This document shows positions 1-8,459 of a DNA stretch of 10,017 nt, piece after piece. The translations under genes were made by a program, and so were the position numbers. Source of the DNA: Desulfobacterales bacterium. Lineage in GTDB: Bacteria; Desulfobacterota; Desulfobacteria; Desulfobacterales; Desulfosalsimonadaceae. The DNA lies in the NCBI GenBank assembly GCA_018224315.1, contig JAGTVF010000097.1, forward strand, positions 1 to 10,017, given 5' to 3'. The notes below the pieces were generated by a model that saw only the letters and a list, made by a program, of their open reading frames with translations, was not told the origin of the DNA and ran no database searches. Within the stretch, counting starts at the first letter, position 1. Each line of letters begins with the position of its first letter.

Positions 1-1697
1 AGGAACTGCTCAACAAGCATTATCCTGAAATAGACATTGTTGCCCAAAAAGACACCCTGGCCTGCCTCAAGGCGGTTTCCTCCGGAAAGGTGGATGCCGC
101 CCTGTCAGAGAAGCCGGTTTTTGACCATTTGATCCGGCGGCATTTTCTCACGGATCTCAAAAGCGTGCCGGTCATGGACAGTCCCTGGCTTGAAAACACG
201 CCGGTATCCATAGGTGTCAGCAAGGAGCGCGCCATACTAGGCGCTATACTGCAAAAGGCCATGGACAGGGTGACCCAGGATGAGATGGCCCGGCTCTACC
301 GCCGCTGGCTGGACCGGGAGCAGGCCGGGTGGGCCGGGCTCAGGATGACGCTTTCCCGGCAGGAACGCCAGTGGCTGGAAGAAAAGGGGGAAATCCGCAT
401 CTGCGGCCGGCCTTCCTGGCTTCCCTTTGAGGAAATCGATGAAAAAGGGTCCCACAGGGGGATTGCAGCTGATATCATGGCCCTGCTGGAGGAAAGAATC
501 GGTGTGCCCATCCGATTTGTTCCCACAAAAAGCTGGGAGCAGAGCCTTGAGGCCTTAAAAAGCGGCCGCTGTGACCTGCTTTCCGCAGTGTCAAAAAGCA
601 GCCGGGAAAAAGGCCCGTTTGTGGTGTCCAAACCGTATCTCGAGTCTGTCAATGTGATGGTGGCTCGGGACGGGCAGCCCTATATTCCGAATCTTCATGC
701 CCTGGAAGGCCGAAAAGTCGGTATTGTGCAGGGCAACCCGGTGGCGGACTACCTGCGGGATCAGTATCCCGGCATCCGGCTTCGTTTTTATCCGGACCTG
801 AAAGGGGTTTTGCGGGCAGTGGCCAAAGATGAGGCAGAAATCGCCCTGGGAAGCCTGCACCGGGTCAGCTATATCCTTCACGAACTCGGGCTTTATGATT
901 TAAAAATCGCCGGGCAGACACCATACAAAGAACAACTGGGCCTGGGCATTGCCGGAGACAATCAGGTCCTTGCCGCCATCATGGACAAGGCCCTGGAGGC
1001 GGTCTCCGGCCGGGAGGTGAGCCGGATTACCCGAAAATGGCTTTCGATCCGGTATGAAAAGGGATTTGACACCCTGCTGCTGTTTCAGATTCTGGGGGTT
1101 GTGGCTGTGCTCATGAGTTTGTTTGTTTTCTGGAACAGAAAACTGGCCCGCCTAAACCGGGATCTGGGCACCGCCCATCAGGCGCTTGCCGTCAAAAGCC
1201 GGGAACTGGAAAGACTTTCGGTTACAGATGCCCTGACCGGCATTTTCAACAGGCTCAAAACCGAAGATCTCCTGCTGGATGAAATCCGGCGCATCCGAAG
1301 AACCCGCCAGCCGTTTTCCGTTATCATGCTGGACGTGGATCACTTCAAGCAGATCAATGATTTGCACGGGCATCAGACCGGAGATCATGTCCTAAAGCAG
1401 ATCACCGGTTTATTGCATGCCAATATCCGCCAGGCCGACAGTATCGGCCGGTGGGGCGGGGAGGAGTTTTTGATCATCTGTCCGGACACATCAATGAAAG
1501 GGGCCCTCATTTTGGCCCGGCACCTGCGCGGTGTGCTTGCCGAACAGCAGTTTTCCGCTGCCGGCCGGGTGACCTGCAGTTTCGGCGTGGCTCAATATTA
1601 CCCGGGGGAAGGCATCACCCAGCTTTTGCGCAGGGTGGACCGGGCCATGTACCGGGCCAAGCAGCGCGGCCGAAACCGGGTGGAAGTTTTGGAATAA
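1..1697 (+). CDS. Membrane diguanylate cyclase with tandem periplasmic solute-binding sensor domains (5' end cut by window)
   Basis: The reading frame is open from the first full codon at position 3, so the gene begins upstream; 564 residues are visible. Visible residues 1 to about 105 look like the end of one family-3 solute-binding (Venus-flytrap) domain. Residues about 125-345 form a second one, opening with a segment like EIRICGRPSWLPFEEID and ending in the usual Arg-Lys-Trp helix. A single hydrophobic segment follows at about 357-376, then a short charged linker and a C-terminal GGDEF domain starting near DALTGIFNR. The active-site loop is GGEEF (nt 1455-1469), a functional variant of GGDEF. 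An RxxD inhibitory site (RQAD, nt 1428-1439) lies five residues before it. The family makes cyclic di-GMP from two GTP; ligand binding in the periplasm would control cytoplasmic cyclase output. The ligand cannot be told from sequence. The domain order resembles BvgS/EvgS-type sensors with the kinase replaced by a cyclase. Confidence 0.93.
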   Translation, partial: ELLNKHYPEIDIVAQKDTLACLKAVSSGKVDAALSEKPVFDHLIRRHFLTDLKSVPVMDSPWLENTPVSIGVSKERAILGAILQKAMDRVTQDEMARLYRRWLDREQAGWAGLRMTLSRQERQWLEEKGEIRICGRPSWLPFEEIDEKGSHRGIAADIMALLEERIGVPIRFVPTKSWEQSLEALKSGRCDLLSAVSKSSREKGPFVVSKPYLESVNVMVARDGQPYIPNLHALEGRKVGIVQGNPVADYLRDQYPGIRLRFYPDLKGVLRAVAKDEAEIALGSLHRVSYILHELGLYDLKIAGQTPYKEQLGLGIAGDNQVLAAIMDKALEAVSGREVSRITRKWLSIRYEKGFDTLLLFQILGVVAVLMSLFVFWNRKLARLNRDLGTAHQALAVKSRELERLSVTDALTGIFNRLKTEDLLLDEIRRIRRTRQPFSVIMLDVDHFKQINDLHGHQTGDHVLKQITGLLHANIRQADSIGRWGGEEFLIICPDTSMKGALILARHLRGVLAEQQFSAAGRVTCSFGVAQYYPGEGITQLLRRVDRAMYRAKQRGRNRVEVLE

Positions 1698-1704
1698 CCT
1701 GAGT

Positions 1705-2772
1705 TTACGGCAGCGGCTCGTCAGTGTAGGCCACATTGGCCTCCTGCGGGGTGCGGGGCTCAAGCGGCCGGTTATTGGCGATGTCATCGACCCAGTTGGC
1801 ATTGAGCAGCAGGGATTTGCCGGATAGCACAATATCTGCATCCTGCAGGGCCTGGTCGGCTGTTTTGCGGTCATAAATCCCGCCGCAGATCATCAGCGGC
1901 TTGCCGGTTTTCTGCCTTGTGAGCTGTGCCATGTTTTGATCCGTGTCAAATGCCGGGTCGCTGAAATTCAGGGTGGAGACCGAAACGGCATCCACCGGCT
2001 CTTTGTCTAAATAACCGATGGTTTCCAGCCACTGGTCCTTTTCAAACAATGACACCTTCATGTCCACAACGCCCCAGTTCGATATCCGGAAGGTCAGCAG
2101 CCGGTCTTCGGGCATGACCCCGCGCACTGCGCGGATAATCTGTTTGGCCAGCCGGAACCGGTTTTTGGTGGAGCCGCCGTAGGCGTCTGTGCGCTTGTTG
2201 GAATACGGGGATAAAAATGAGTTGATGAGATAACCGTGGGCCCCGTGGACCTCCACGCCGTCAAAACCGGCTTCAACAGCGCCTTTGGCGGTTTCGGCAA
2301 ATCCGTGGATCACATGATCAATGTCAAATTGACTCATTTCATCGGGCACCGGAAAAGGCTGCCCGGTAAGGGGATTGTCCTGCTGCGGGGCCACCGGGCT
2401 CGGGGCGATGATCCGGCCGGCGGGATTGATCTCCGGCCAGGCCACCCGGCCGCAGTGAAACATCTGCATGACCGCCGTGCTGCCGGCGTCTTTGATGGCC
2501 CGGACAACCGGTTTCCAGGCCTCGATCTGGCGCTGTGTGACCATCCGGGACTGGCGGGGATAGCCCTGGGCGCTTTCGTAGTCTGTGAGCACGGCTTCGG
2601 TGAAAACAAGGCCCACGCCGTTTTGGGCCCGGCGCACCAGAAAGTCGAGCACATCCTGGCGCGGTACACTGTCTTTGACAGCAGAGGTGCGCGTCATGGG
2701 CGCCACACCAATGCGGTTTTTCAACTGGATGTTTTTGATCCAAAATCCGGAAAACAGGTCTTTTTCTGCCAT
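1705..2772 (-). CDS. Old-yellow-enzyme family NADH:flavin oxidoreductase
   Basis: A 355-residue FMN-dependent TIM-barrel oxidoreductase. The N-terminal strand carries NRIGVAPMTR. HCGR lies at residues 106-109. The motif HGAHGYLINSFLSP (from H176) holds the substrate-binding pair H176/H179 and Y181, which corresponds to the catalytic Tyr of the family. The usual YGGS...NRFR segment follows, and the C-terminal phosphate-binding loop contains CGGIYDR. The length fits the single-domain OYE class, without the 4Fe-4S and NAD(P)H domains of the dienoyl-CoA or trimethylamine dehydrogenase branch. The start at 2772 was chosen because AGGAG sits 6 bases before the ATG and the next residues match the family N-terminus; longer in-frame extensions run into the upstream gene. 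It lies 34 bases after the flavodiiron gene and is probably co-transcribed. It likely reduces activated C=C bonds of enones or related electrophiles; the natural substrate is unknown. Confidence 0.93.
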   Translation of the reverse strand: MAEKDLFSGFWIKNIQLKNRIGVAPMTRTSAVKDSVPRQDVLDFLVRRAQNGVGLVFTEAVLTDYESAQGYPRQSRMVTQRQIEAWKPVVRAIKDAGSTAVMQMFHCGRVAWPEINPAGRIIAPSPVAPQQDNPLTGQPFPVPDEMSQFDIDHVIHGFAETAKGAVEAGFDGVEVHGAHGYLINSFLSPYSNKRTDAYGGSTKNRFRLAKQIIRAVRGVMPEDRLLTFRISNWGVVDMKVSLFEKDQWLETIGYLDKEPVDAVSVSTLNFSDPAFDTDQNMAQLTRQKTGKPLMICGGIYDRKTADQALQDADIVLSGKSLLLNANWVDDIANNRPLEPRTPQEANVAYTDEPLP

Positions 2773-2806
2773 GATGGGCTCCTTTTTCTTTTCGGCCGGG
2801 GTGGGT

Positions 2807-3985
2807 TCAGACCAGATCCAGGTCTTTGTGTTTTTTGGCAATGGCTGCGGCCATGTCATCGAGTGCCTTGAAATCGCTTTGCGAGGCAAGGCCCTTGCAC
2901 AAGACCGGATCAATGACCTCCACCTTGAGGTTGCCGGTCATGGACGCTAAAGTTTCCACGGTTTTGCCGCCCCAGCCGTAGGACCCGATAATGGAAAGAA
3001 ATCTGGCCTTTGGCCGCAGGGCATTGGCCAGAAATGCGGCATAGGCGGCCATGGGATGCGGGCCGGCCAGGACCGTGGGCGTGCCCACCACGATTGTGGC
3101 CGCATCCACCAGGGACATGGCCAGCTTGCCGATATCGGTCACCGGCAGGTTAAACAGCTCCACGCGTACGCCCTGGGCTGTGAGGGCTGCGGCCAGGTGA
3201 TCCACCATTTGCCGGGTACTGCCGTGCATGGATACAAAGGGCAGCACCACAAGGTTTTTGGGCGCGCCGTTGACCCACTGGTCATAGGCATCCATGATCC
3301 AGGCGGGATCATCATAGATCTGGCCGTGGCTCGGGGCGATCATGTCAATGTCATAGGGCCTGAGCTTTTCCAGGTTTTTGGAGATGATTTTGGAAAACGG
3401 CATCATGATTTCGGCAAAATAGCGCTTGGCTGCCTCATATACCCGTCCCGGGTCGGTGACGAAAAGATCGGAAGTGGCAATGTGGGAGCCGAAAAAATCA
3501 CAGCTGAACAATATGCGCTCTTCCTCCAGGTAGGTGACCATGGTTTCGGGCCAGTGCACCCAGGGGGTGTGGAGGAATGTTAAGGTTTTATCCCCCAGGC
3601 TCAAAACATCGCCGTCTTCAACAGGGGAAAACACATCTTCGGAAAGGCGGAGCAGGTCCATGAGCATGCCTTTGGCTTTGGGGGTGACCACCACCTTTGC
3701 CTCTGGAAATTTCTCCAGCACCCGGCCGAGGGTGCCGGAATGATCCTGCTCGGCATGATGGGAGATGATGTAGTCGATTTTTTCAACCCCCCGGAGCTGA
3801 TCCATGAGTGTTTCTTCCATGGGCGGATCCACGGTGTCCAAAAGCGCGGTCTTCTGGCTTCCCTTGATGAGATAGGCATTATAGCTTGTGCCGTCGGGCA
3901 GCGGGATCAGGGAGTCAAACAGCCGCCGGTCCCAGTCAATCGCCCCCAGCCAGTCAATGTTTTCCTTGATCTGCCGTTTTTCCAT
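2807..3985 (-). CDS. A-type flavodiiron protein (rubredoxin:oxygen / NO oxidoreductase type)
   Basis: A 392-residue cytoplasmic protein with a metallo-beta-lactamase-like diiron domain (about 1-240) and a flavodoxin-like FMN domain (about 245-392). The diiron ligands are visible: H77, E79, D81 and H82 in HHAEQDHSG, H144 in TPWVHWPE, D163 in SCDFFGS and H220 in APSHGQ. The FMN phosphate loop is SMHGSTRQM. There is no C-terminal rubredoxin or flavin-reductase extension, so this is the simple class A type, which needs an external electron donor such as rubredoxin. Family members reduce O2 to water and/or NO to N2O in anaerobes; which one applies here cannot be read from sequence. The start at 3985 is supported by an AGGAGA ribosome-binding site. 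It is the first gene of a two-gene operon with the OYE-family gene and has a good promoter about 90 bases upstream. Common names are roo or fprA; I leave the symbol open. Confidence 0.95.
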   Translation of the reverse strand: MEKRQIKENIDWLGAIDWDRRLFDSLIPLPDGTSYNAYLIKGSQKTALLDTVDPPMEETLMDQLRGVEKIDYIISHHAEQDHSGTLGRVLEKFPEAKVVVTPKAKGMLMDLLRLSEDVFSPVEDGDVLSLGDKTLTFLHTPWVHWPETMVTYLEEERILFSCDFFGSHIATSDLFVTDPGRVYEAAKRYFAEIMMPFSKIISKNLEKLRPYDIDMIAPSHGQIYDDPAWIMDAYDQWVNGAPKNLVVLPFVSMHGSTRQMVDHLAAALTAQGVRVELFNLPVTDIGKLAMSLVDAATIVVGTPTVLAGPHPMAAYAAFLANALRPKARFLSIIGSYGWGGKTVETLASMTGNLKVEVIDPVLCKGLASQSDFKALDDMAAAIAKKHKDLDLV

Positions 3986-4074
3986 AACCGCTCTCTCCTG
4001 TGTTTTGTCCGGGTCTTTTGTACATACGGCCGGATAGCAATTGAAAGAAAACATGAAATGATTTTTAAATCCAT

Positions 4075-4103
4075 AATATAGCTTTGCCCCCGGCAAAGGT
4101 CAA
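4075..4103 (-). promoter_or_regulatory. Predicted sigma70-type promoter of the flavodiiron/OYE operon
   Basis: Read on the minus strand, TTGACC (4103-4098) is followed by a 17-base spacer and TATATT (4080-4075). This is close to the TTGACA-N17-TATAAT consensus, and an AT-rich leader follows. It would start transcription near 4068, leaving about 80 bases of leader before the ATG at 3985. No other candidate of this quality was seen between 3986 and 4165. This is a pattern match by eye, not an experimental start site. Confidence 0.62.
4082..4098. repeat. Perfect inverted repeat inside the promoter spacer (candidate operator)
   Basis: ctttgcc-ccc-ggcaaag is a perfect 7-bp inverted repeat with a 3-base centre. 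It occupies the spacer between the -35 and -10 hexamers of the flavodiiron/OYE promoter, overlapping the first base of the -35 box. A dimeric repressor bound there would block RNA polymerase, or a MerR-like activator could reshape the spacer. The sequence does not match an operator I recognise (not FNR/HcpR, Rex or PerR-like). Confidence 0.45.
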
Positions 4104-4165
4104 ATCCACCCTTATCACCCCGGCTCAGAAATTGCTGCCTTTCCTCTCATCTGTTGTGAATCGGT

Positions 4166-4594
4166 TCATTTCATTGCCTGCTCTATCCGGGAGACATATT
4201 CTTCTACTTCATCGAGTCCGGAAAACAGGTAATTACAAATCTGTCGCCCGTCCACAGACTCATAATCATGGGCAAGAAATTTTCGGAAACCGGCGATTCT
4301 GGCAAAGGAATGGGCAAATTCTGCCTCAAGAATGCGATTTTCAGATAGAATATCAAAGGCCTCTGCATACGTTTGCGGCGGTCTCAGCGCTTTGCGCTTT
4401 ATTGCCCTGGAGATTTCCGCGTAAATAGCAAGTTTATGGTTCAGTTCGATTAAACCGGCTTCGGCATCGAAGTATACTGCAACATCCAGGTCGCTCAGCG
4501 AATTTTCCATTGCCGTGCCGGATGAGCCGAACACGTAAGCAAAAAGCACACGGGGTTGAAATCCTGATAAGGTCTGCGCAAGCTCACCAAACAT
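4166..4594 (-). CDS. MntA-HepT chimera: nucleotidyltransferase N-terminus fused to HEPN C-terminus
   Basis: A 142-residue protein. Residues 16-42 match the core of MntA-type minimal nucleotidyltransferases: FAYVFGSSG, with G23-S24 and, ten residues later, D35-L-D37, which is the GSX10DXD motif. From about residue 56, and clearly from LRPPQTYAEAFDIL (70-83), it matches the C-terminal half of HepT-type HEPN (DUF86) toxins. That part includes R104-KFLA-H109-D-Y111, the RX4HXY RNase motif with the Tyr that MntA modifies in known systems. Each family alone is about 100-150 residues, so the second half of MntA (with its third acidic residue) and the first half of HepT are missing. The reading frame is intact and a GAGG ribosome-binding site lies 5 bases before the ATG. 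It sits 65 bases downstream of vapC; a weak TATAAG -10-like box lies in that gap. It may be a functional fusion, an inert deletion product, or a stand-alone HEPN-like antitoxin. Confidence 0.82.
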   Translation of the reverse strand: MFGELAQTLSGFQPRVLFAYVFGSSGTAMENSLSDLDVAVYFDAEAGLIELNHKLAIYAEISRAIKRKALRPPQTYAEAFDILSENRILEAEFAHSFARIAGFRKFLAHDYESVDGRQICNYLFSGLDEVEEYVSRIEQAMK

Positions 4595-4659
4595 TTATAC
4601 CTCGTCAGCCAGCAGTTCCGTGTAAGTTGTTCAGTGTGTGTACTTATATCATCAATAAC

Positions 4660-5070
4660 TTATTTTTCAGTCAGCCCAGGGATGCGCGCCCATTTATGCC
4701 TGGCAAGCTTATGGTCAAAGGTGTAGGTTGCCTCGCATCCGGCTGAACGATTTTTGTAAATAATGACGTAGTCTGAAAAATCGGCTGGTCCCCGCCGATA
4801 GGCGGCAAGTGCAGATCCGGCGGTATGCGGGTCTTGGATGGAAAACTCTTTTGTGGAAAGAATCTGCTCAAGAACCTTGATCACCCAGTGTTTTTCGTAT
4901 TTGTAGGCTCCGCGCAAAACCCATACCAACTCACAGAGAACAACTGTTGCAATCATTGCCGGAGATTCCCTTGTACAACACGACTCGATCAAATGGTTGG
5001 CCTGCGCGGACTGCTCGGCATGATCCTGGGTTAGATAGCGGACCAGCACATTGGTGTCCAGGCCGATCAT
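4660..5070 (-). CDS. vapC: PIN-domain ribonuclease toxin, VapC type
   Basis: 136 residues, the normal VapC size. The PIN active-site acids are in place: D5 in MIGLDTNVLVRYL, E47 in LCELVWVL, D97/D100 in ADFSDY and D119 in TFDHKL. These bind Mg2+ for cleavage of RNA; known VapC toxins cut tRNA or rRNA, but the target here is unknown. The start codon overlaps the stop of vapB by four bases (ATGA), the usual translational coupling in vapBC operons. The toxin is expected to be inactivated by the VapB encoded just upstream. The next gene on the same strand is the MntA/HepT-like chimera, making a compact toxin-antitoxin island. Confidence 0.92.
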   Translation of the reverse strand: MIGLDTNVLVRYLTQDHAEQSAQANHLIESCCTRESPAMIATVVLCELVWVLRGAYKYEKHWVIKVLEQILSTKEFSIQDPHTAGSALAAYRRGPADFSDYVIIYKNRSAGCEATYTFDHKLARHKWARIPGLTEK

Positions 5071-5303
5071 TCTTTTTGACTCCCTTCACGAATGGCCCGG
5101 TCCATTTCTTCAAGCGATATTGCCTTTTGGGGCCTGGGCAGCATGCCTTTGAGCCGGCTGACCGGTGTATGCCTTGCCACCAGCCTTACGCCATGATCAT
5201 CTTCGAGTATAAACTCCACCCGGTCTCCGGCCGTAAGCCCCAATTTATCTCTTAAATCTTTCGGCAGGGTAATCTGGCCCTTGCTTGTAAGGGTTGCATG
5301 CAT
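5067..5303 (-). CDS. vapB: AbrB/SpoVT-family antitoxin, VapB type
   Basis: 78 residues from the start at 5303. The N-terminal AbrB-type swapped-hairpin DNA-binding domain is clear (ATLTSKGQITLPKDLRDKLG, then GDRVEF); the C-terminal region (about 45-78) is the expected toxin-binding tail. An alternative ATG lies one codon upstream at 5306. AGGAG at 5314-5310 is 3 bases from that ATG and 6 from the one at 5303, so I prefer 5303. VapB should neutralise VapC and, with it, repress its own promoter. The perfect 14-bp inverted repeat that begins about 20 bases before the start is the likely operator. Confidence 0.92.
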   Translation of the reverse strand: MHATLTSKGQITLPKDLRDKLGLTAGDRVEFILEDDHGVRLVARHTPVSRLKGMLPRPQKAISLEEMDRAIREGSQKE

Positions 5304-5322
5304 CATGATCTCCTGTTGTCAT

Positions 5323-5356
5323 CTGCATTTCCTTACCTAAAAGTAAGGAAATGCAG
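5323..5356. repeat. Perfect 14-bp inverted repeat upstream of vapBC (likely VapBC operator)
   Basis: The arms ctgcatttccttac (5323-5336) and gtaaggaaatgcag (5343-5356) are exact reverse complements around a 6-base centre (ctaaaa). It overlaps the predicted -10 box of vapBC and ends about 20 bases before the vapB start. There is no T-run after either arm, so a terminator is unlikely. Autorepression by VapB or VapBC at such palindromes is well known for this family; the assignment here is inference from position. Confidence 0.7.
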
Positions 5357-5368
5357 CTATCCCGTCAA
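5340..5368 (-). promoter_or_regulatory. Predicted promoter of vapBC
   Basis: On the minus strand TTGACG (5368-5363) is followed by a 17-base spacer and TACTTT (5345-5340). The -35 is good and the -10 weak. The -10 lies across the centre and inner arm of the 14-bp inverted repeat, as expected for an autoregulated toxin-antitoxin operon. Confidence 0.45.
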
Positions 5369-5473
5369 GCCTTTTCTGAAAAATTTTTGCTCGGTCCGCT
5401 CTTGTATCATATAAAATCCTGTCCCGGCTTTCCTTGAAATCAATGGCAGCATGCAGCATAGGAGCTGCGATGG

Positions 5474-5512
5474 CCGCGCACCTGCCGGCCACCAAGGCCG
5501 GCAGGTGCGCGG
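5474..5512. repeat. 17-bp GC-rich perfect hairpin downstream of the alanine symporter gene
   Basis: The arms 5474-5490 (ccgcgcacctgccggcc) and 5496-5512 are exact reverse complements around the loop accaa. This would form a very stable RNA hairpin in either direction. It lies 43-81 bases past the stop of the minus-strand AGCS gene, so it may end or protect that transcript, but no U-tract follows on the minus strand. Apart from this hairpin, the vapBC promoter and the inverted repeat, the 250-base gap 5304-5554 shows only a small gaaatt/aatttc repeat at 5519-5534. Confidence 0.6.
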
Positions 5513-5554
5513 GTCCATGAAATTTTAGAATTTCAGCAGCTTTCCGGGCCGTCT

Positions 5555-6907
5555 TTATCCGATGTCTGCGGGATAGACCCGCTTGGGATCGCTGAAGTAT
5601 TCTTTGGTCAACCGGATGATGACCGGGCTTAAAAAGATCAGGGCGATGAGGTTGGGCCAGGCCATCAGGGCGTTGAATATATCCGAGATGGTCCAGACCG
5701 TGGATAGCTCCACATAGGCGCCCACCGGCAGCAGCAGGCAGTAAAGCACCCGGTAGGGCATGACCAGCTTTTCTCCGAAAAGATAATCAATGCAGCGGTC
5801 CCCGTAATAGGACCAGGTAATGGCCGTGGAAAAGGCAAAAAAGATGATGCCGATGGCCACAATGTATCCGCCAGGGCCGGGAAGGCCCATGTTAAAGGCT
5901 TTGGCCGTCAGGTCGGCACCGGTTTCCCCGGAGGTGAAGGCCCCGGTGATAATGATGACCAGGCCGGTCATGGTGCAGACCACAATGGTGTCAATAAAGG
6001 GGCCGAGCATGGAAATCAGCCCGGCGCGCACCGGTTCGCTGGTTTTGGCCGCCCCCCAGGCAATGGGTGCGCTGCCCAGGCCGGCCTCGTTTGAAAACAC
6101 GCCCCGGGCCACGCCAAAGCGGATGACCTGGGCCACGGCTGCGCCGGCAAAGCCGCCGGTGGCCGCCGTGCCGGTAAAAGCATCTGTGAAGATCATGGCA
6201 AAGGCGGCCGGAACCTCGCTGAGGTTGGCAAAGATCACCACCAGGGAGCCGAGCACGTAAAAGGTTGCCATGATGGGCACCAGCCGGCTGGCCACCTGTC
6301 CGATGCGCTTGATGCCGCCGACAATCACAAGAAAAACAAGGGCGCCGATGAGCAGGCCTGTCACCAGCTTGGGAATCCCGAAATAGGTCTGAACGGGTTC
6401 AGCCACGGAATTGGCCTGGACCATGTTGCCGATGCCAAATGAGGCCACGGCTGCAAACACGGCAAACAAAACCCCCAGCCATTTCTGCCCCAGACCCTTT
6501 TCAATGTAGTACATGGGCCCGGCGCCCACCACGCCGTTGGGGTGAATGGTCCGGTAATGCAGGGAAAGAAGGCATTCTCCGTATTTTAAGGCCATGCCGA
6601 AAACCGCAGTGACCCACATCCAGAACATGGCCCCGGGCCCGCCAAGGGCCACGGCCGTTCCCACGCCGGCAATGTTTCCTGTGCCGATGGTGGCTGAAAG
6701 CGCTGCGGTCAGGGCCTGGAAATGGCTGATTTCTCCCTTGTCCTTTGGGTCGTCATATTTACCGGAGATCAGTTTCCAGGCATAGCCGAACTTGCGCAGC
6801 TGAATCAGCGGCACAACGATTGTCAGCAAAATTCCTGTGCCGACCAGAAGAATGATTGTTACAGGTCCCCAGACAAAACTGCTGATCATCCCAAGAAATT
6901 CTTCCAT
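5555..6907 (-). CDS. Sodium:alanine symporter, AGCS family
   Basis: A 450-residue integral inner-membrane protein, about ten or more hydrophobic segments, of normal family length. The AGCS signature region GGPGAMFWMWVTAVFG is at residues 89-104, preceded by SATIGTGNIAGVGTA. Other strongly conserved stretches are GVARGVFSNEAGLGSAP in the middle and FAFSTAITWSYYGDRC near the C-terminus. The family couples Na+ (or H+) influx to uptake of alanine, glycine or similar small amino acids; the exact substrate is not readable. The start at 6907 follows an AAGGGGGG ribosome-binding site. The gene stands alone, transcribed away from the HPP operon terminator. The 230 bases upstream contain a near-perfect 9-bp inverted repeat (7087-7106) but only weak promoter-like boxes. 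Confidence 0.95.
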   Translation of the reverse strand: MEEFLGMISSFVWGPVTIILLVGTGILLTIVVPLIQLRKFGYAWKLISGKYDDPKDKGEISHFQALTAALSATIGTGNIAGVGTAVALGGPGAMFWMWVTAVFGMALKYGECLLSLHYRTIHPNGVVGAGPMYYIEKGLGQKWLGVLFAVFAAVASFGIGNMVQANSVAEPVQTYFGIPKLVTGLLIGALVFLVIVGGIKRIGQVASRLVPIMATFYVLGSLVVIFANLSEVPAAFAMIFTDAFTGTAATGGFAGAAVAQVIRFGVARGVFSNEAGLGSAPIAWGAAKTSEPVRAGLISMLGPFIDTIVVCTMTGLVIIITGAFTSGETGADLTAKAFNMGLPGPGGYIVAIGIIFFAFSTAITWSYYGDRCIDYLFGEKLVMPYRVLYCLLLPVGAYVELSTVWTISDIFNALMAWPNLIALIFLSPVIIRLTKEYFSDPKRVYPADIG

Positions 6908-7086
6908 TCATCCCCCCTTTTTTACATTTTGAGTCGGGTTCATGTTGACGTGCGTTACGGCTCACAAAGGGTTGTTTCTTGCGGCGCTGCAGATTCCGGG
7001 CGGGAAAAACGGCTGGCCGGATTCTGCTGCTGCCGGTTGTCGTTCCGGTGGAAAAGTAAAGATAATTTATAAAAAAACAGAATGTT

Positions 7087-7106
7087 AACAGCTGGGACCA
7101 GTTGTT
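7087..7106. repeat. Imperfect 9-bp inverted repeat upstream of the alanine symporter gene
   Basis: aacagctgg (7087-7095) and ccagttgtt (7098-7106) pair with one mismatch around a 2-base centre. It lies about 180 bases before the AGCS start and just past the terminator of the HPP operon. It could be a regulator site, but no clear promoter was found beside it. Otherwise 6908-7139 contains no gene that I can support. Confidence 0.3.
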
Positions 7107-7139
7107 TTTAAAAAAGGATAGAAATCTTTTGCTAATTTT

Positions 7140-7168
7140 AAAAAAAATAGCACCAAATCGGACTGGTG
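7140..7168 (-). terminator. Intrinsic terminator of the CBS-HPP operon
   Basis: Read on the minus strand, CACCAG (7168-7163) pairs with TTGGTG (7156-7151), including one G-U pair, around a 6-base loop. CTA and eight consecutive T follow (7147-7140). It begins 23 bases past the HPP stop codon. The stem is short but the position and U-tract are convincing. Confidence 0.7.
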
Positions 7169-7191
7169 TAAAGATATTTGATTTTTTTGCT

Positions 7192-7728
7192 TTACAACCA
7201 GAACTCCGGGTAACGGCGGCGGGGGGCGATATTGTTGACCAGCAGGGCCACGGCCAGCATCACAACAGCTCCGAGGCCGGCCGGAACCAGTACGTACCAG
7301 AAGCCCAGGGTATGGATTTTGCTGCTGCCGATCACCGCAATCAGTGCGGTGGCACCACCTGGGGGGTGCAGGGTTTTTGTGGCGTGCATGGCAAGGATTG
7401 CCGTGGCCACGGCAACGGCTGCTGCCAGGGGCATGCTTGCCCCCAGCAGCTTGAATGCCGCCACCCCGATCACAGCCGAAATCATGTGCCCGCCCATGAG
7501 GTTTCTGGGCTGGGCCAAAGGGCTTCTGATGGCGCCGTAGATCAGCACTGCGGATGCGCCAAAGGAGCCGATGATCATCACCAGATCCGAATCGCTCAGT
7601 ATCCGGTAGTGGATCAGGGCCACTGCCGCAATGCCCAGAAAAGATCCCGCCCAGGACCAGAGCATTTCCGCAAAGCTGACTCTGGGCGGACTTGTGGTCA
7701 CGCCTTTCATTTTTTTGAAATACTGCAT
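7192..7728 (-). CDS. HPP family integral membrane protein
   Basis: 178 residues, mostly hydrophobic, with about four or five membrane spans. The family-defining His-Pro-Pro is at 121-123 (LHPPGGATALIAV), and the other conserved stretch is SFGASAVLIYGAIRSPLAQP (55-74) followed by RNLMGGH. The start at 7728 is preferred over one nine codons upstream because AAAGG precedes it at good spacing and the longer form would overlap the CBS gene. It lies 10 bases after the CBS gene and both end at the terminator at 7140-7168. Some HPP proteins of cyanobacteria and chloroplasts have been shown to transport nitrite; whether this bacterial member does so is inference. In other genomes HPP and CBS domains occur fused or adjacent, matching this pairing. 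Confidence 0.92.
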   Translation of the reverse strand: MQYFKKMKGVTTSPPRVSFAEMLWSWAGSFLGIAAVALIHYRILSDSDLVMIIGSFGASAVLIYGAIRSPLAQPRNLMGGHMISAVIGVAAFKLLGASMPLAAAVAVATAILAMHATKTLHPPGGATALIAVIGSSKIHTLGFWYVLVPAGLGAVVMLAVALLVNNIAPRRRYPEFWL

Positions 7729-7738
7729 GATTTTTCCT

Positions 7739-8350
7739 TTAACAAATCTTTGCAAAAAATGATTTCACCATGTCGGCGCGGCTGACAATGCCCGCAATTT
7801 TTCCGTCCGGGTCCGCCACCGGCACCCGGTTGATCTGTTTTTCGGCAAACAGCTGGGAAATTTCGGACAAGGGGCGCTCCGGGGCCACGGTCACCGCCGG
7901 GGCGGACATGATATCGGCCGCGGTTTTGCCCCGGATGGGAAGCGCCACGCATCCCTTGTTTTTCAGGCACTGGCTGATCACACCCATAAATGAGCCCGAG
8001 GGCTCAGCCCCCATTTTCTGGAGAAAATCCTTTTCCGAAATCACGCCCAGGACTTCATTTTTTTCATTTACAACCGGAATGCCCGAGATGTTGGCCGCGG
8101 CCATGCGCTCTGCGGTTTCCAGCAGGGAGGTTTCCGGATTGACGCAGATCACCTGCCGGGTCATTACATCTTTGGCCCGCATGGACCGGGCGATCCGGTC
8201 CACTGCGTGATTGTAGGCAAAACGGTAGATTTCCATGAAATCGGCGGGCGTGATATCAATATAGCCCTGCATTTCCTTCATGGCGGCGATAATGTCCTGG
8301 TTTTCAAGATCCACGGGCGAGGTGCCCGGATCATCAGAGTTAAACGGCAT
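7739..8350 (-). CDS. Tandem CBS-domain protein, partner of the HPP membrane protein
   Basis: 203 residues, soluble. A short N-terminal region (1-57), rich in charged residues and without a recognised domain, is followed by two CBS domains. CBS1 is at about 58-112, with DVMTRQVICVNPETSLLETAE and GVISEKDF. CBS2 is at about 143-198, with DIMSAPAVTVAPERPL and GIVSRADM. Such a pair (a Bateman module) binds adenine nucleotides and controls a partner protein. Since the next gene, 10 bases on, is the HPP membrane protein, the simplest reading is that it gates that transporter. The start at 8350 follows AAGGGGG. An FNR-like palindrome lies about 110 bases upstream. The ligand is not readable from sequence. 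Confidence 0.92.
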   Translation of the reverse strand: MPFNSDDPGTSPVDLENQDIIAAMKEMQGYIDITPADFMEIYRFAYNHAVDRIARSMRAKDVMTRQVICVNPETSLLETAERMAAANISGIPVVNEKNEVLGVISEKDFLQKMGAEPSGSFMGVISQCLKNKGCVALPIRGKTAADIMSAPAVTVAPERPLSEISQLFAEKQINRVPVADPDGKIAGIVSRADMVKSFFAKIC

Positions 8351-8459
8351 CAGCGGCCCCCTTGAAAATCCTGCCTTTGAGTCGGTTTTTGGGTGGTTTT
8401 CTACAGCAATTACGGGTAAAAACTGTAGTAAAGACTTTCATAAAACCATTGCGGCTGCA

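Follow-up and report, generated by a model that had tools for sequence, protein, structure and literature searches.

The window analysed here, a stretch of 10,017 nucleotides, contains one short open frame in which the front of an MntA antitoxin runs directly into the back of a HepT toxin. This frame is very probably a decay remnant of an MntA–HepT type VII toxin–antitoxin pair, and the half-and-half fusion is best explained as the scar of a recent deletion, found in one genome among those searched. Of the two readings offered by the initial annotation, the deletion remnant is supported by the two-gene pairs of close relatives, by a gap of 358 bp relative to them, by the lack of a second such junction and by the loss of key enzyme parts. 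The other, a compact self-regulating HEPN module, is not supported.

The fused frame and its intact relatives

The fused frame lies on the minus strand (4166..4594), starts with ATG and extends over 142 codons (142 aa) with no stop or frameshift inside. Counting in the translation confirmed that this single frame carries both signature motifs at the residues first proposed, GSX10DXD (G23-S24, ten residues, D35-L36-D37) and RX4HXY (R104-KFLA-H109-D110-Y111). Profile searches likewise found an MNT match in the front part (residues 12–68 over all profiles) and a HEPN/HepT match in the back part. The Pfam profile Polbeta (PF18765) covers residues 13–68 (E 2.2e-9, profile 10–63 of 93), and the HepT-like profile (PF01934) covers residues 63–137 (E 2.4e-16, profile 47–120 of 120). 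The NCBIfam models MntA_antitoxin (NF047752; E 3.7e-8, 33.2 bits, cut-off 60) and HepT_toxin (NF047751; 59.7 bits, cut-off 60) gave the same picture. The profile matches are far above chance, and both equivalog cut-offs are missed, as half domains should miss them. The sole match to the fusion protein in its own assembly is its own locus (E 0.01).

The MntA-derived part, with GSX10DXD, occupies 4405..4594 (-), up to the junction repeat, and corresponds to residues 1 to about 64. It is closest to the MntA of the genome G007 (81% amino acid identity over residues 1–70; 86.6% nucleotide identity over 4392–4637). The HepT-derived part, with RX4HXY and the stop codon, occupies 4166..4391 (-) and corresponds to HepT from about residue 63 to the end; residues 64–141 of the fusion are 88% identical to the HepT of G001. 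The junction, which had been placed at about residues 50–56, is actually at residues 64–68. Our scan of positions 4050–5600 for promoters and terminators gave one promoter-like site, against a shuffle mean of 1.8 (sd 1.3), and two terminator-like sites, against a mean of 1.4 (sd 1.3), neither count being above chance.

The fusion shares its motifs, gene order and the homology of both halves with the known MntA–HepT (HEPN-MNT) type VII pair, such as SO_3165/SO_3166. However, it is one frame with half of each domain rather than two adjacent complete genes, and it differs from the pair in missing the NCBIfam cut-offs and in lacking the third metal ligand, the MntA C-terminal helix and HepT alpha1–alpha2. 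The two-gene arrangement is that of the close relatives: mntA and hepT are neighbouring, unfused frames in four genomes of the same genus (G001, G002, G007 and G008) and in one of the same family (G022), with open frames of 130–166 aa for MntA and 145–171 aa for HepT. In that search, nine of 98 genomes, the window's own being among the 98, had matches at E 1e-8 or better. The halves are also apart in three additional public loci (L019, L020 and L021); L015, L016, L017 and L018 represent the very contigs of G008, G001, G007 and G022, respectively, and are not independent of them. Comparison with these intact relatives bore out the absence of the C-terminal half of MntA and the N-terminal half of HepT.

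We searched for the same junction in overlapping samples of 98 genomes, of 389 genomes from the order (E 1e-6), and of 389 from the class and 395 from the phylum (both E 1e-7). Leaving aside the frames at the G201 and G231 loci and the 208-aa open frame of G118, none of the matches listed was a second half-and-half fusion; the matches in the class sample were all genomes of the order. The viral contigs gave seven pattern matches and no relative of the fusion, and the plasmids held no relative of it. No report of a half-and-half MntA/HepT fusion was found among the papers listed from one open-licence library, judged from titles and the starts of abstracts. Given that neither the genome samples, the viral contigs nor the plasmids yielded a second example, a conserved new architecture was rejected.

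Elements missing from the fusion and the question of function

The initial annotation spoke of the front of MntA. A front is indeed matched, but it ends short of the Asp-bearing strand of the MNT domain. In the relatives this strand reads IDVVILN and aligns with IDIVELN of the MNT chain 7ae2_B, whereas the window reads KALRPPQ at this place. The third metal-binding Asp of MNT is absent from the fusion, its equivalence to D71 being based on the motif rather than on an alignment to the S. oneidensis chain. In S. oneidensis MntA, D71 binds Mg together with D39 and D41; deletion of helix alpha4 impairs adenylylation, and the C-terminal helix region is needed for full activity (PMC7641770, available sections).

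In addition to this strand and the end of MntA, the fusion has lost HepT residues 1 to about 62, which carry 22 of the 48 columns invariant across 11 intact HepTs. The model of an intact HepT places helices at residues 2–30 and 35–62, both absent from the fusion, and the PF01934 profile is covered from 47 to 120 only, so that the HEPN helical bundle is incomplete. The accessible part of a study on a Legionella HEPN enzyme describes a dimer interface formed mainly by alpha1, alpha2 and the Y-loop, and places the metal site at Q44/E47 (PMC11586414). If the numbering carries over, the equivalent site would fall within the lost part of HepT. Within the retained part, N105K, directly after R104, replaces an Asn that is invariant in the 11 intact HepTs.

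AlphaFold gave no confident fold for the fusion monomer. The mean pLDDT was 46.4 and the pTM 0.31 (12-row alignment, with 8 MNT rows and 3 HepT rows), as compared with 86.0 and 0.81 for the intact HepT (11 rows), an imperfect control, as only 3 of the 11 HepT rows covered the C half of the fusion. Since the MNT half lacks the Asp that serves as third metal ligand as well as the C-terminal helix, and the HEPN half lacks alpha1–alpha2, the fusion product most likely has neither activity. The toxin would have been lost in the same event, and the loss of the antitoxin would therefore have been harmless.

The retained parts show little sequence decay. For the HepT half, pairwise dN/dS is 0.07–0.08 with G008 and G001 and 0.14 with G007; for the MNT half it is 0.23–0.40 with the same three genomes. 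The window has two unique residues (P91A and N105K) at the 40 HepT-half sites that are invariant in six other sequences, and none at the 26 such MNT-half sites. The same count in the other six ranges over 0–8 and 0–3, respectively; the window is unexceptional, and the two changes are no proof of relaxed selection. The low dN/dS and the few unique residues give no sign of long decay, so that a loss of function, if there was one, would have to be recent. Dating the fusion by dN/dS was rejected, because there is a single genome and the ratio mixes the time before the fusion with the time after it.

An open frame with both motifs kept and a low dN/dS in the HepT half, preceded by upstream sequence that resembles L017 including the start-codon context, could also belong to a young functional mini-protein, which would either bind the intact HepT or MntA of incoming elements or act as a compact self-modifying HEPN. 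We consider this highly improbable. Most of the low dN/dS would stem from before the fusion, and the frame occurs in one genome only among the samples of 98, 389, 389 and 395. Moreover, the loss of the third acid, the MntA C-terminal helix and HepT alpha1–alpha2, the lack of a confident fold and the N105K change argue against such a protein, and all but the last of these points also tell against the compact module originally suggested. A further reading, to which we attach the least probability, is that the fusion is expressed as an anti-addiction or dominant-negative partner, with the HepT back half capping intact HepT or MntA. If this were true, the scar would protect the cell against incoming toxin–antitoxin elements.

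The junction, a second scar and the ancestry of the halves

The window is shorter by 358 bp than L015, L016 and L017, and by 359 than L018–L020. The mntA and hepT frames of L015–L017 are offset by 1, and because 358 mod 3 is likewise 1, the remains read through as one frame; by chance, one deletion in three would keep such a frame. An in-frame deletion of a few hundred bases, as originally proposed, is supported. At the junction lies a 13-nt imperfect direct repeat (4392..4404 (-)), which reads CAACAAAGCGCAA in mntA of L017, CAATAAAGCTCAA in hepT of L015 and CAATAAAGCGCAA in the window. The best 13-mer pair near the junction scores 10/13 in L017, a score reached by 35 of 148971 pairs within the locus, 9/13 in L016, and 8/13 in L015, there at an offset of 355 instead of 358. 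The microhomology is therefore suggestive rather than strong, and is weak in L015 and L016. We propose that the second half of mntA and the first half of hepT were removed from an mntA–hepT pair, with a net loss of 358 bp relative to the intact relatives, and that the route may have been illegitimate recombination at this short imperfect repeat. The event could have involved a single copy or two diverged ones, and the remains would have formed one open frame by chance, their offset happening to match 358 mod 3.

The neighbourhood indicates a longer history. In the 5′–3′ direction of the minus strand, the fusion is preceded by an amaC-like symporter (5555-6907 (-); putative, named by reading, with no profile), an AbrB/MazE-type antitoxin gene (5067..5306 (-); PF04014, E 6e-12) and a PIN-domain, VapC-like gene (4660..5070 (-); PF01850, E 9.6e-7, NCBIfam VapC cut-offs missed), the abrB gene belonging to a neighbouring toxin–antitoxin pair. 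It is followed by an FprA-like flavodiiron protein (2807-4096 (-); putative, named by reading). A perfect 17-nt inverted repeat at 5474-5512, just downstream of amaC, is probably the amaC terminator hairpin. Close behind it, a blast of the window neighbourhood revealed a scar of the missing middle, 76 bp in length (5384..5459 (-)), between amaC and the adjoining abrB gene and about 0.8 kb from the fusion, with the PIN gene in between. The scar comprises the 3′ end of mntA together with the first hepT codons, and matches the intact loci in G008, G001 and G007 at 70–71 of 76 positions. It is the only match to the missing middle in the window's assembly (E 0.01), and a broken assembly with the missing middle on another contig was therefore rejected.

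The sister genome G003 carries the same piece in the corresponding amaC–abrB interval, inside a 2259-bp alignment at 91%, and has a different gene after PIN in place of the fusion. As a side observation, the frame right behind PIN in G003 (L046 4306-6693 (-)) is 796 aa long and looks helicase/restriction-like by eye; a Pfam search at E 1 gave no match for it. That the scar has the same position and edges in the window and in G003 supports a shared scar. The two scars are identical at 66 of 76 positions, the window scar being nearer to the intact loci, which would be compatible with faster change in G003, yet is no help to the shared-scar reading. In G019, the similarity to the abrB–PIN unit starts at window position 5389, the edge of the scar. 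The scar probably predates the divergence from G003, and probably represents a first mntA–hepT copy truncated on the arrival of the abrB–PIN unit. The fusion, on the far side of that unit, would then probably stem from a second copy.

The two halves of the fusion also differ in their nearest relatives. Sites were taken as diagnostic where G008 and G001 share a letter that differs from that of G007 and the window has either of them; at these sites the window is G007-like at 22 of 30 in the MNT half and at 5 of 29 in the HepT half. The contrast between the halves is significant by Fisher's test on the diagnostic sites (p 2e-5) and on rounded synonymous differences (p 0.007), both values being optimistic because diagnostic sites are linked. 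The dS of the MNT half is 0.23 to G007 and 0.62 to G008, and that of the HepT half is 0.80 and 0.56. Thus, the picture of one deletion in the initial annotation stands as to the deletion itself, but is incomplete: a scar of the missing middle lies nearby, and the halves are nearest to different relatives. A single clean deletion as the whole story was rejected, as it fits neither the scar nor the mosaic pattern.

A version of the decay-remnant reading, not exclusive of it, is recombination, in a toxin–antitoxin hot spot, of a G007-like mntA–hepT copy with a diverged G008/G001-like one. The half-specific dS, the Fisher tests and the 76-bp scar beside abrB are consistent with this version. Nevertheless, the HepT half of G007 may itself be the unusual one, with 18 unique changes against 5 in the window, and ordinary gene conversion followed by a simple deletion yields the same mosaic pattern. 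Given the linkage of the diagnostic sites as well, we regard recombination between two copies as possible, though somewhat doubtful.

The mosaic pattern could, on the other hand, come from chimeric assembly of two strains. The assembly has 384 contigs, one of which is exactly the window (10017 bases), and the assembler might have collapsed or chimerised an mntA–hepT pair that is intact here in the real genome. Such an error is very unlikely. The repeat at the junction spans no more than 13 nt and is imperfect in the relatives; a repeat of 13 nt is below the usual assembly word size. The missing middle is not found elsewhere in the assembly, which is estimated to be 90.9% complete, and the flanks of the window are colinear with G004 on both sides.

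Apparent recurrent decay of MntA–HepT loci, and full-length fusions

G004 is the closest genome by FprA (92%) and is colinear with the window at 1-4155 and 5527-8352. In the same amaC–fprA gap it carries a different mntA in the opposite orientation (L045 6446-6975; Polbeta, E 1.3e-17), followed by the last HepT residues only (profile 90-120, E 6e-5, 23.2 bits, cut-off 23.5). The two genomes are a case of independent arrival and decay at one site, and the gap looks like a small hot spot of repeated toxin–antitoxin arrival and decay. HepT tails also stand directly behind mntA-like frames, identified by eye, in G388 (L081 1178-1737) and G348 (L082 1653-2145; the start of the mntA-like frame looks doubtful), and G132 has a hepT with stops. 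Loss of the hepT front seems to be a recurrent decay route in this order, from whose sample we inspected three out of five HepT frames shorter than 105 aa. Like the window, G004, G388 and G348 have lost the 5′ part of hepT and keep a C-terminal stretch behind mntA. In these loci, however, mntA is complete at its 3′ end (on profile evidence in G004, on inspection by eye in G388 and G348) and the HepT tail is not fused to the mntA frame, whereas the window has a truncated mntA as well, with the two frames merged into one.

Full-length fusions of the two domains form another point of comparison. HEPN-M is described as 'occasionally fused to MNT', and fused HEPN domains as typically devoid of catalytic residues, in the available portion of PMC3710099. 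A natural full-length MNT-HEPN fusion of 294 aa was spotted by its long open frame in G208 (L079 2082-2966 (-)). By eye, both of its domains are whole, with the acid strand RVDVVVLN and the motif RNLIVHYY; it thereby keeps the RNase motif that the same source reports as usually lost. The window fusion shares with it the order of MNT before HEPN in one polypeptide, but matches half profiles only, and its architecture is found in one genome only of the samples searched.

To conclude, our analyses indicate how a toxin–antitoxin module of two genes can be reduced to a single open frame carrying both signature motifs. A motif scan would take such a remnant for a 'new fusion', and motif-based censuses of MntA and HepT should therefore demand the MNT acid strand together with HepT alpha1–alpha2.
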